DNA of 64,000 nucleotides from Cryomorphaceae bacterium (GTDB lineage Bacteria; Bacteroidota; Bacteroidia; Flavobacteriales_D; Sanyastnellaceae), in NCBI GenBank assembly GCA_016124575.1, contig WGNM01000018.1, positions 1 to 64,000 on the forward strand, written 5' to 3'. A program made the position numbers and the translations under genes. Below, piece after piece: positions 23,870 through 30,221 of the stretch. Position 1 is the stretch's first letter. Every line of letters starts with the position of its first letter. The notes below the pieces were generated by a model. The model was not told the DNA's origin. It did no database searches and saw only the letters and a list, made by a program, of their open reading frames with translations.

Positions 23870-25000
23870 ATGAAATTTTCAGTTCAAGCGAAAGATCCCC
23901 GCAGCAAGGCACGGGCGGGAGTTCTGGAAACCGATCACGGTCCAATAGAGACGCCTATATTTATGCCTGTGGGTACGGCGGGTACTGTAAAAGCTGTCCC
24001 ACAACAAGATTTGGTAAATGATATTCAAGCGCAAATCATTTTGGGCAACACGTATCATCTGTATCTGCGTCCGGGCATCGATATCATTTCAGCAGCTGGT
24101 GGTTTGCATGAGTTTATCCATTGGGATCGTCCGATTCTTACCGATTCTGGCGGTTTTCAAGTGTATTCGCTATCTGGAATTCGCAAGATCACAGAAGAAG
24201 GTGTCAAATTTAAGTCGCATATCGACGGTTCATCGCATGTTTTTAGTCCTGAACGCGCCATAGATATCCAACGCGCCATTGGTGCCGATATCGTCATGGC
24301 TTTCGATGAATGCACGCCTTACCCTTGTGAATTCGGCTATGCGCGCGAGTCGATGGAGATGACGCATCGTTGGCTGAAGCGCTGCATTCAAAGAATGGAT
24401 GAAACGGAGCCAAAGTACGGATACAATCAAGCCCTTTTCCCAATTGTCCAGGGCAGCACATATCCTGATCTGAGAAAGCAATCGGCTGAGTTTATCGCTC
24501 AACAAGGAGCTTTCGGAAATGCCATTGGCGGACTATCAGTGGGTGAGCCGCACGAAGAGATGTATGCGATGACCGATTTGGTGTGCTCTATACTTCCTGA
24601 AGATCGTCCGCGTTACCTCATGGGTGTTGGCACGCCGGCCAATATTTTAGAGTGCATAGCGTTAGGCGTTGATATGTTTGATTGTGTAATGCCAACTCGT
24701 AACGCACGCAATGCAACCATATTCACCAAAAACGGTGTGATGAATATGCGAAATGCAAAGTGGGCAAATGATTTTTCGATGCTCGATCCTGATGGTACTT
24801 CTTTGGTCGATACGTATTATTCGAAATCATACGTGCGCCACTTGTTCGCAGCAAATGAGATGTTGGCTTTTTGGATTGCCAGCTTGCACAATTTGGCATT
24901 CTATCTATGGCTTGTAAAAGAGGCGCGATTGAAGATTCAAGATGGTACGTTTGCGACTTGGAAAGATGAAATGGTGAAGAAGGTAACACAGCGCCTATAA
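23870..25000 (+). CDS. tgt: Queuine/preQ1 tRNA-ribosyltransferase (tRNA-guanine transglycosylase)
   Basis: 376 residues; exchanges guanine 34 for preQ1 in tRNAs with GUN anticodons. Barrel motifs are intact: DSGGFQVYSLS with the base-binding/catalytic Asp near 89, GGLSVGEP near 220 and FDCVMPTRNARN with the nucleophile Asp near 266. The C-terminal zinc site C-x-C-x2-C...H of well-studied Tgt enzymes is absent: the segment after LDP at about residue 304 contains no cysteine, and only the His of ASLHN remains. It overlaps the next gene in TAATG. Confidence 0.95.
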   Translation: MKFSVQAKDPRSKARAGVLETDHGPIETPIFMPVGTAGTVKAVPQQDLVNDIQAQIILGNTYHLYLRPGIDIISAAGGLHEFIHWDRPILTDSGGFQVYSLSGIRKITEEGVKFKSHIDGSSHVFSPERAIDIQRAIGADIVMAFDECTPYPCEFGYARESMEMTHRWLKRCIQRMDETEPKYGYNQALFPIVQGSTYPDLRKQSAEFIAQQGAFGNAIGGLSVGEPHEEMYAMTDLVCSILPEDRPRYLMGVGTPANILECIALGVDMFDCVMPTRNARNATIFTKNGVMNMRNAKWANDFSMLDPDGTSLVDTYYSKSYVRHLFAANEMLAFWIASLHNLAFYLWLVKEARLKIQDGTFATWKDEMVKKVTQRL

Positions 25001-26079
25001 TGAAGTTGCTCGACTGGTATATCATCAAGAAGTTTCTCAGCACCTTTTTCTTTATGATCGGTGCCTTCTGTGTGATTGCCGTGGTATTTGATCTCTCTGA
25101 AAATATCGACGACCTCATGGCCAATGCCGCGCCATTGGATGAAATTATTGTCGATTACTACCTCAATTTTTGTCTGTTTTTCGGAAACATGCTGAGCTCG
25201 TTCATCGTGTTTCTTACCATCATACTTTTTACGAGTCGGTTGGCGCAACAAACTGAGTTTGTAGCCATGCTATCTGGCGGGGTGAGCTTCAATCGCTTGA
25301 TGCGTCCGTATTTCATAGCATCTACATTTCTGGTTTTGCTATCGCTTTTAATTGCGCATATTCTCTTGCCTGAGGCGAATAAAACGAAAGTAGACTTTGA
25401 GTTCAAGTACATTCATACGCGTTTTTTGATCAGCGATCAGCACATGTATCGCGAGATAGAGCCGGGCACCATTGCCTACTTCCGGTCGATTACAGCTGAT
25501 CGAAATGTGGGCTATAAGTTCGCTCTGGAAAACTGGGAAGATGGCCGCTTGGTACGCAAGATTATGTCGGCAAAAGCCAATTACATTGACTCAACGGGGA
25601 TGTGGAAATTGACAACGGTGAAGGTTCGCGACATACACCTTGATGGCACTGAGGATATCCGCATTGAGAGCACAATCGATACTACATTGGATATGCACTT
25701 TTCAGATTTTGCACAGCGCAGCGAGATCATATCGACGATGGGCTATCATGAGTTGAACGACTACATCCAAAGTGAAAAGCAGGGAGGGTCGGGTAACGTA
25801 GCTTTTATTGAAATTGAAAAATACTCTCGCACTTCGAATGCTTTTGCGATCTATGTTTTGACCTTGATTGGGGTGTCGTTGGCGTCGAGAAAGGTGCGCG
25901 GGGGGACAGGTTTGCACCTCTTTTTCGCGGTCGTCATTGGTTTGACTTATGTTTTTTGTCTGAAGATGACAACGGTGGCAGCCACAACGGTTGGATTGCC
26001 AGCATACATCGCTGTGTGGGTTCCGAACGTGTTGTTTAGTGTTCTGGGGCTGTTCATATACGTCCGTGCCCCGAAATAA
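25000..26079 (+). CDS. LptF/LptG-family lipopolysaccharide export permease
   Basis: 359 residues with the YjgP/YjgQ topology: three N-terminal membrane helices (from MKLLDWYIIKKFLSTFFFMIG), a large periplasmic domain about 130-270, then three C-terminal helices. It works with LptB ATPase to pull LPS from the inner membrane to the Lpt bridge. LptF versus LptG cannot be told apart from one paralogue. The start shares one base with the tgt stop (TAATG), implying translational coupling, and the gene abuts ispE at its end on the opposite strand. Confidence 0.92.
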   Translation: MKLLDWYIIKKFLSTFFFMIGAFCVIAVVFDLSENIDDLMANAAPLDEIIVDYYLNFCLFFGNMLSSFIVFLTIILFTSRLAQQTEFVAMLSGGVSFNRLMRPYFIASTFLVLLSLLIAHILLPEANKTKVDFEFKYIHTRFLISDQHMYREIEPGTIAYFRSITADRNVGYKFALENWEDGRLVRKIMSAKANYIDSTGMWKLTTVKVRDIHLDGTEDIRIESTIDTTLDMHFSDFAQRSEIISTMGYHELNDYIQSEKQGGSGNVAFIEIEKYSRTSNAFAIYVLTLIGVSLASRKVRGGTGLHLFFAVVIGLTYVFCLKMTTVAATTVGLPAYIAVWVPNVLFSVLGLFIYVRAPK

Positions 26080-28012: not shown

Positions 28013-28187
28013 TCTAAATTGTAGGTTTTGTCATGCAGAAAGCGGGCTATCAACGAAATATTTTTCAATTACCGCTGAAAACTCTTAGATTTGGACAAAT
28101 GCGACGGTAATGAACATTTTGAATTGTGATAAATCAAAATGCTTCGTTGGCTGTCTCAAACTAGTTGAACTTAATTTATACGATATC

Positions 28188-30221
28188 GTGAAACGTTTAC
28201 TAATTTTTTCTGGGGCAATGTTATTTGCTCTTTCAACATTTGCTCAACTCAATCAGATTGTTGTGGAGCCATACACACTCACAAACCCAGCGAGTGTTCA
28301 ACCAGAAGGCACTACGACATATAGAGTGTATGCTCAGCTTGACGCTGCTGTAGACAAGGTTACAGCTGTTTTTGCGACGTTGAACTGCCATACTTTGGAT
28401 ATTTCTACGACCACCACCTTCCACAACGATGCACTTGGGACAACAACAGGGGCGGCCGTGAATACTGCATTCTTTGCTTTCTTCCCAACATACGAAGCTG
28501 ATTCGTGGGTGACCATAGGAGCAGCTGACAATGCAACTCCGGGTGCTGCCGACATTGGAGCATTAGCAACTGTGCCTCTTAATCCTTATGCAGGATCTGT
28601 TGGAACCACGCCTGGGGGCAATTTGGCAATGTCTGATGGTATTTGGTACACTTTGCCAACAAGTCCGACTTGTTTGCCAACGGGCCCGAACAACCGCGTA
28701 TTGCTTGGTCAATTTACAACGGATGGTATTTTCTCTTTCAACATAAATATTCAGGTTTTTGTTGGTGGTAACCAACCAGCAGGACGTGCAGACTACGTTT
28801 GGAGTGTGCCTTGTGTTGAGACTTTTGGAAATCAAACCGGATTTGAGCAAGACGGTGCTCCCCTTGGTTTGAGCTATGTATCTGGAGGTGCTATAACAGG
28901 ATGTACAGATGATACAGCTTGTAACTATGATCCAACAGCTGAAGTTGACAATGGTACTTGCGAATATCCGGATGCTGGATATGATTGTAACGGAGAGTGC
29001 TTGGTTGATACAGATGGCGATGGTGTTTGTGATTCGAACGAGATTCCAGGATGTACAGATGTTACAGCATGTAACTACGACATGAATGCAACTGACGATG
29101 ATGCTTCTTGTACTTACCCAGAACAATATTTCGACTGTGAGGGCAACTGTTTGATGGATACAGATGGCGACGGCGTATGTGACGAGTTAGAGATTCCAGG
29201 TTGTACGAACCCTGCAGCTTGTAACTACAACATGGATGCTACGGAAGAAGACTCTTCATGTGTATTTGCAGAACAGTACTTAGACTGTGAAGGCAACTGT
29301 TTGATGGATACAGATGGCGACGGCGTATGTGACGAGTTGGAGATACCGGGCTGTACCAACCCTACCGCTTGTAACTACAACATGGATGCTACGGATGAAG
29401 ATTCGTCATGTGTATTTGCAGAACAATACTATGATTGTGAAGGAAACTGTTTGATGGATACAGATAGCGACGGAGTTTGTGATGAATTGGAGATTGAAGG
29501 ATGTTTGGATGACACCGCTTGTAACTACAACCCAGATACCACCGATGAGGTAGACTGTGTTTATGCAGAGCAATACTACGATTGTGAAGGCAACTGTTTG
29601 ATGGACACTGATGGCGACGGCGTTTGTGATGAATTGGAAATCGCAGGTTGTACCGATGCTGAAGCATGTAACTATGATGCTGACGCAACCGATGATGACG
29701 GCTCTTGCGAATTCGTTTTAGCAGGAACAGTTGTTGGATCGGCTGCTTCATCTGAAGGTTCAACTGAGACCTATACTTACGATACTACCGCAGGTAGTAC
29801 GTATGCATGGACCGTTGTTGGTGGAACTATCGTTTCAGGACAGGGCACAGCGACCATCACAGTGATGTGGGATGTTGTTGGAACAGGGACTGTAAGCGTA
29901 GTTGAAACCAATGCTGATGGATGTGTTGGCGACGAAGTGTCGCTAGATGTTGACGTTGCAGTTAGCGTAAGTGAGTTCGAGGCTTACCCGGTAGCAATTT
30001 ACCCTGTGCCGGCAAATGACCAAGTGATCATCAGCGCGAAAGGCTGGAACGGATTGACAATGGTGCGTGTTTCAGACATGACAGGACGTCTTGTTGCTGA
30101 ACACCAAATGAATGGCACTCAGCTCAATATGCCAGTTTCTCAATTGGCTTCAGGGCAGTACATCGTAACTATTTCAGGTGTGAACGGTGCTACTTCTGCA
30201 CGCATTTCTGTTCAGCACTAA
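28188..30221 (+). CDS. T9SS cargo protein with six tandem Cys-rich calcium-binding-like repeats
   Basis: 677 residues if it starts at the GTG at 28188, which gives the signal peptide VKRLLIFSGAMLFALSTFAQ; an ATG at 28110 would add 26 implausible residues. Residues about 20-235 are an unknown beta-rich domain. Then come five full and one partial 50-residue repeats, GCTDxxACNYxxxATxDDxSC plus DCxGNCLMDTDGDGVCDELE, whose DxDxDG element resembles thrombospondin type 3 calcium sites. A PKD/Ig-like segment follows, then a type A T9SS sorting domain (YPVPANDQVIIS, VRVSDMTGRLV, SGQYIVTI). Expected to be a surface or released protein, perhaps adhesive. Confidence 0.88.
   Translation: MKRLLIFSGAMLFALSTFAQLNQIVVEPYTLTNPASVQPEGTTTYRVYAQLDAAVDKVTAVFATLNCHTLDISTTTTFHNDALGTTTGAAVNTAFFAFFPTYEADSWVTIGAADNATPGAADIGALATVPLNPYAGSVGTTPGGNLAMSDGIWYTLPTSPTCLPTGPNNRVLLGQFTTDGIFSFNINIQVFVGGNQPAGRADYVWSVPCVETFGNQTGFEQDGAPLGLSYVSGGAITGCTDDTACNYDPTAEVDNGTCEYPDAGYDCNGECLVDTDGDGVCDSNEIPGCTDVTACNYDMNATDDDASCTYPEQYFDCEGNCLMDTDGDGVCDELEIPGCTNPAACNYNMDATEEDSSCVFAEQYLDCEGNCLMDTDGDGVCDELEIPGCTNPTACNYNMDATDEDSSCVFAEQYYDCEGNCLMDTDSDGVCDELEIEGCLDDTACNYNPDTTDEVDCVYAEQYYDCEGNCLMDTDGDGVCDELEIAGCTDAEACNYDADATDDDGSCEFVLAGTVVGSAASSEGSTETYTYDTTAGSTYAWTVVGGTIVSGQGTATITVMWDVVGTGTVSVVETNADGCVGDEVSLDVDVAVSVSEFEAYPVAIYPVPANDQVIISAKGWNGLTMVRVSDMTGRLVAEHQMNGTQLNMPVSQLASGQYIVTISGVNGATSARISVQH
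28899..29712 (+). repeat. Six tandem 150-bp coding repeats
   Basis: Units begin at 28899, 29049, 29199, 29349, 29499 and 29646. Units 1-4 are exactly 150 bp, unit 5 is 147 bp, and unit 6 is cut after about 67 bp. Units 2-4 share long identical stretches, so the array looks recently duplicated or homogenised and could change copy number by recombination. Confidence 0.95.

Follow-up and report, generated by a model that had tools for sequence, protein, structure and literature searches.

The tRNA guanosine(34) transglycosylase (Tgt) encoded in the window, by which we mean the whole 64,000-nucleotide stretch of Cryomorphaceae DNA analysed here (contig WGNM01000018.1 of assembly GCA_016124575.1), most probably works as a normal bacterial Tgt while doing without structural zinc, a reading to which we assign a probability of about 0.8. 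The structural zinc site of this well-known enzyme has genuinely been lost, across the lineage and more than once, and the window Tgt does not represent a new system.

A Tgt without the cysteine ligands

The window protein scored 486.7 bits against TIGR00430 (NCBIfam, cut-off 306.75), which places it in this family, and 516.8 bits against PF01702 (Pfam). Alignment to E. coli Tgt revealed that the zinc ligands C302, C304, C307 and H333 are represented by G, S, D and H, so that the E. coli-type ligand set is absent (Table 1). The original prediction had located the gap after an LDP motif at about residue 304, with no cysteine from there to the C-terminus and only the His of ASLHN kept. This description holds: LDP starts at residue 305, the final cysteine is C272, and H340 is the one ligand retained, next to G309, S311 and D314 at the other three positions. 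The catalytic residues had likewise been described as intact, and the counterparts of the active-site residues D89, D143 and D264 of E. coli are indeed all present as D92, D146 and D271. We take E. coli D89 to be the general acid/base and D264 to be the nucleophile. For the Z. mobilis enzyme, these roles are described for D102 and D280, the counterparts of window D92 and D271 (PMC4425180).

The segment downstream of the former zinc loop corresponds to the dimer hot spot of the Z. mobilis enzyme, which is described as aromatic and as comprising W326, Y330 and H333 together with F92 of the mate (PMC5395182). Y317, Y321 and H324 of the window protein align with the first three (columns 310, 314 and 317), and the residue that we equate with F92, at E. 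coli position 79, is F in both E. coli and the window. The aromatic hot-spot residues are present in the aligned window Tgt, and the counterparts of W326, Y330 and H333 are also conserved in the wider alignment.

Table 1. Positions of the tgt gene, its functional residues and the adjacent gene in the window.
Feature	Window position	Strand	Basis
tgt, tRNA guanosine(34) transglycosylase, zinc-site-less form, 376 aa	23870..25000	+	TIGR00430, PF01702
D92 (E. coli D89)	24143..24145	+	alignment
D146 (E. coli D143)	24305..24307	+	alignment
D271 (E. coli D264)	24680..24682	+	alignment
G309-T-S311-L-V-D314, in place of C-x-C-x2-C	24794..24811	+	alignment to E. coli Tgt
G309 (E. coli C302 position)	24794-24796	+	alignment
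S311 (E. coli C304 position)	24800-24802	+	alignment
D314 (E. coli C307 position)	24809-24811	+	alignment
Residues 316-324 (YYSKSYVRH), dimer hot-spot segment	24815..24841	+	alignment
H340, fourth zinc-ligand position kept (E. coli H333)	24887..24889	+	alignment
LptF/LptG-family permease gene, neighbour of tgt	25000..26079	+	PF03739, 178.6 bits

Overall, the window Tgt resembles the canonical enzymes (E. coli, Z. mobilis; TIGR00430) in its full-length homology, catalytic Asp residues, hot-spot positions and predicted fold, and differs from them in the missing C-x-C-x2-C ligands. The eukaryotic QTRT1 and QTRT2 share the superfamily fold; unlike the window Tgt, both are described as retaining the zinc site (PMC6165067, PMC4425180). 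By score, no Bacteroidota Tgt is among the 55 matching PDB sequences, the best of which is Z. mobilis Tgt (386 bits); enzymes from E. coli, T. maritima, eukaryotes and archaea are further members of the set. The introduction of a 2022 paper states that TGT activity requires zinc (PMC9508795). Among the papers listed in literature searches, no title or abstract opening described a zinc-less bacterial Tgt, although the form may already be annotated in HAMAP/UniProt.

The window gene is the single TIGR00430 match in its genome. A search with this model for a second, zinc-binding copy found none, and hence no C-/C+ paralogue pair under zinc control. The start codon of the LptF/LptG-family gene shares one base with the tgt stop codon (window 24998-25000). 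The same pairing occurs in five of six other Bacteroidia loci tested (the related loci L161, L162, L179, L227 and L229) and tblastn found no case of it in the available flanks of 54 further loci; the two window genes are possibly co-transcribed. Farther downstream, window positions 28110-30221 encode a 703-aa protein with repeated Cys-rich units (GCTD..ACNY...DGVCD).

Distribution of the loss in Bacteroidota and beyond

Among 395 genomes drawn from the phylum, 381 contained a Tgt. From this draw, 142 Tgts (window included) were picked by score rank and then by family spread, a non-random sample that spans 54 of the 55 families, the 55th being f40. A scan of named loci gave at least 594 matching stretches, of which the best 80 were kept. 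No two sequences are identical in the aligned core, and the phylum-draw and named sets may overlap in species. Zinc-site states were read in 231 Tgts, 59 with the full CCCH set and 172 with the site lost.

The original prediction that the missing motif might be a feature of the lineage and not a local loss is supported by this alignment, since the site is missing from 170 of the 223 Bacteroidota Tgts read (full CCCH in 53), among them every one of the 22 that belong to the window's class (12 families, window included). The best 80 of the at least 594 named loci give a similar picture, with 75 lacking the site and five keeping it (three Ignavibacteria and two unclassified Bacteroidetes MAGs); in this fetched set it is absent from every locus of the NCBI classes Bacteroidia, Flavobacteriia, Cytophagia, Chitinophagia, Sphingobacteriia and Saprospiria. 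A chance or sequencing effect is excluded by the 75 of 80 best named loci together with the complete absence in the window's own class. A Prevotella locus from a plasmid collection has lost the site, too. At the family level, CCCH was found in every sequence read in ten families, one family (f31) is mixed with four sequences keeping the site and one having lost it, and the remaining 44 have lost it. The latter include f40, in which the Tgt lies in two frames and the C-terminal piece also lacks the motif; this split (locus L226, genome G179) represents a frameshift or a sequencing error. Judged from these alignments, the missing zinc motif is a lineage feature of most, and not all, families read in the phylum.

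Outside the phylum, CCCH is kept in E. coli, Fusobacterium, Pusillibacter, Latilactobacillus, Arthrobacter, Magnetococcus, Paracoccus and Xanthomonas. Two Hyphomicrobiales lack the site, Sinorhizobium (SCTN) and Methylobacterium (SCAN), and Paracoccus, their nearest relative read, keeps it.

Two further observations concern the gene content of individual families. Two f35 genomes (G184 and G373; loci L224 and L225) carry, beside an ordinary Tgt, an extra TGT-family gene that is divergent, about 371 aa long and marked by CDCHTC (C-x-C-x2-C); it scores 308 and 304 bits, respectively, against TIGR00430. Moreover, of the five genomes that represent genus g108 of family f36 in the draw, four (G147, G195, G199 and G344), about 99% complete, gave no Tgt match; G328 of the same genus has one.

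Residue patterns in zinc-less Tgts

Three, one and no cysteines occupy the three positions in 59, 38 and 134 of the 231 Tgts, respectively, and none has two. At the level of sequence, the loss of C-x-C-x2-C is thus all-or-none. The fourth ligand, H333, is present in all 59 three-Cys Tgts; of the 172 zinc-less ones, 121 have H at position 333 (E. coli numbering), 48 have Q and three have N. All three catalytic Asp residues are found in every Tgt read, 172 zinc-less and 61 CCCH (n=233). Likewise, H317, L318, E323 and N334 occur in all 172 zinc-less sequences, Y314 in 171 and an aromatic residue at 310 in 169; Y314, H317, L318, E323 and N334 are invariant or nearly so in zinc-less and CCCH sets alike.

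Several positions of the former site show recurring residues. With one gapped row omitted, 113 of 171 zinc-less Tgts have S, T, N or D at position 304, and the pattern [STNDG]xx[DEST] over 304-307 is found in 101; the 58 without S/T/N/D at 304 include the Sphingobacteriaceae read, which have L. Among the 73 zinc-less Tgts with D at 307, 72 have H333, which suggests that the two residues may be in contact as an Asp-His pair; co-evolution of the two was considered, but well-supported branches of the tree provide only three independent pairs, too few for an informative test. Furthermore, W at 340 is found in 148 of 172 zinc-less versus 11 of 59 CCCH Tgts and was considered as a permissive change, with only two such pairs on the tree and too few contrasts for tree-aware tests.

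Number of losses

Two trees, of 143 and 141 sequences chosen from the 231 so as to cover their diversity, were built by short searches with the zinc-site columns removed; in the second, the long-branched Arthrobacter and Pusillibacter rows were dropped. Pairwise identities point to more than one loss. Both Hyphomicrobiales Tgts share 62-63% identity with the CCCH Tgt of Paracoccus but no more than 53% with zinc-less Bacteroidota Tgts, which indicates a separate loss. Similarly, the zinc-less f31 sequence (G093) is nearer to a CCCH Tgt of its own family (71.8%) than to the zinc-less Tgts of other families (at most 64.2%) and therefore indicates a further loss in f31. On these identity grounds we claim that the zinc-site loss is recurrent.

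Within the phylum, a single ancient loss followed by horizontal transfer might explain the distribution in place of several losses. We regard this as a serious, if doubtful, alternative. A single clade of the 104 zinc-less Bacteroidota Tgts was not rejected by the AU test (p 0.636), and the tree constrained in this way scored 17.96 log units above the short free search; nor was a grouping of all 106 zinc-less rows rejected (p 0.429). The changes in zinc-site state forced by well-supported branches alone number just three or two. However, the short-search trees require seven changes, G093 lies closer to the CCCH Tgt of its family than to any zinc-less Tgt of other families, and lineages differ in the residues found at the lost sites.

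Predicted fold and how the loop may hold without zinc

An AlphaFold2 model of the window Tgt, built on an alignment of 64 zinc-less sequences, has a mean pLDDT of 90.7, with block means of 95-97 over residues 301-350 and helices at 312-316, 319-327 and 331-357. The model of a CCCH relative (L099; mean pLDDT 87.4) has the same helices, the last one residue longer, and the best PDB match to the window model is itself a Tgt (1q2r; Z 51.6, rmsd 1.6, 369 aligned). These models support a Tgt fold with its C-terminal subdomain present and unchanged by the loss of the zinc site. AlphaFold2 is blind to metals and its training structures include zinc-bound Tgts, so it would tend to this fold anyway. The expectation that the fold is stabilised without zinc is supported by the confident prediction of the C-terminal region as well as by the in vivo function of the S. 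meliloti Tgt described below.

Regarding the mechanism, we propose that the C-x-C-x2-C...H site was given up as a unit in one or several Bacteroidota ancestors and that the loop (E. coli 300-309) would then fold through protein contacts alone. C304 and C307 of the zinc enzyme are the N-cap and third positions of the helix that corresponds to 312-316 in the window model, and this helix starts right after S311. The S-x-x-D form is a classical helix-capping box, and S311-L-V-D314 looks like such a box in place of the metal. The zinc-binding cysteines would previously have held the N-terminus of this short helix, which may now be capped by S/T/N at 304 and D/S at 307, and the metal pocket might be filled, in many lineages, by the hydrophobic residue found at 302. 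In the window's class, the retained H340 may pair with D314. The loss in Tgt may also be part of a general cut in structural zinc sites, like that seen in the 'C-' ribosomal proteins.

Alternatively, the cysteines could have been swapped for another metal site composed of D306, D314, H340 or other acidic or His residues. The frequent co-occurrence of D307 and H333 would provide a plausible two-ligand core, and D314 with H340, perhaps joined by D306, could in principle still hold a weakly bound metal. We consider such a site quite unlikely, since position 307 is mostly S or C in other zinc-less lineages, position 333 is Q or N in a considerable number of sequences, the loop 300-309 is mostly variable in zinc-less Tgts, and the conserved acid at 299 (window D306) is about equally conserved in CCCH enzymes. 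A replacement metal site in the alignment would have spoken against the original prediction; among the 172 zinc-less sequences no new conserved ligand set emerged.

Function in the queuosine pathway

The window genome encodes QueA (400 bits) and QueG (339 bits), both of which act after Tgt, and also has a second QueA-like ORF of 411 aa. No convincing QueC match was found in this genome (best 23.7 bits, cut-off 150.3); preQ0 is probably not made de novo, and the queuosine precursor is therefore probably salvaged.

A phenotype is available for a zinc-site-less relative. A tgt mutant of S. meliloti 1021 is described as showing that Tgt is needed for the use of preQ1 in vivo (PMC3568095), which by analogy indicates that a Tgt without the zinc site works in the cell. 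The S. meliloti sequence read here, with SCTN at the zinc positions, comes from strain Ak57, in which tgt overlaps the queA gene (TIGR00113 359.9 bits, cut-off 267.45). In strain 1021, tgt (SMc01206) and queA (SMc01207) have neighbouring locus numbers, and we infer that the two tgt genes are orthologous. A 3.7-Mb sequence labelled S. meliloti plasmid pSymB (CP090106.1) carries tgt beside queA and may be a mislabelled chromosome.

That the window Tgt is a relic or has changed its function, with the zinc loss as a sign of decay, could be linked to the probable lack of de novo preQ0 synthesis, yet is highly improbable given the complete set of catalytic Asp residues in every zinc-less sequence, the downstream enzymes in the window genome and the presence of Tgt in nearly all genomes drawn from the phylum. 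Decay or a paralogous origin was rejected in view of the one intact copy and the presence of QueA and QueG.

A possible link to zinc loss in ribosomal proteins

Loss of zinc motifs is known from the 'C-' forms of the ribosomal proteins L31, L33, L36, S14, S4 and several more, which resemble the window Tgt in that the motif was dropped by lineage and the role kept (PMC3087516, citing Makarova et al.). Unlike these proteins, Tgt is a tRNA-modifying enzyme, present here as a single copy and not as a zinc-controlled paralogue pair. According to Table 2 of the same paper, nearly every zinc ribosomal protein is of the C- form in Bacteroidetes and alpha-proteobacteria (PMC3087516), and these are the two groups with zinc-less Tgt in our data. 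Verrucomicrobiota and Chlamydiota also appear in that table as largely C-. Against a strict link, Fusobacteria and gamma-proteobacteria are also given there as C- for most of these proteins (PMC3087516), whereas Fusobacterium, E. coli, Xanthomonas and the alpha-proteobacterium Paracoccus have a CCCH Tgt.

We compared L31, L33 and L36 in 30 hand-picked genomes that have one match to each, a small set related by descent (11 with CCCH and 19 with zinc-less Tgt). The zinc motif is missing from all three proteins in 13 of the 19 genomes with zinc-less Tgt versus none of the 11 with CCCH Tgt, and all four sites, including that of Tgt, are lost in the window genome. The L36 motif is kept in all 11 CCCH genomes; four of these lack a full L33 motif (one partly), two of the four also lacking that of L31, and three of the 19 zinc-less-Tgt genomes keep all three motifs. 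The Tgt loss may thus fit into a broader abandonment of structural zinc, although the association is loose and shared descent confounds it. The fuller scenario, in which most Bacteroidota and independently some Hyphomicrobiales have a zinc-free Tgt with a capping box for the metal, as one step in a lineage-wide zinc economy that includes ribosomal proteins, is tentative, and we would put it slightly below even odds.

If the zinc-free reading is true, zinc is dispensable for the Tgt family, and the recurrent, all-or-none loss would represent a natural experiment on how a structural metal is replaced. A tRNA-modifying enzyme would thereby join the ribosomal proteins that are known to have shed zinc, with possible consequences for how queuosine and zinc homeostasis are modelled in Bacteroidota.
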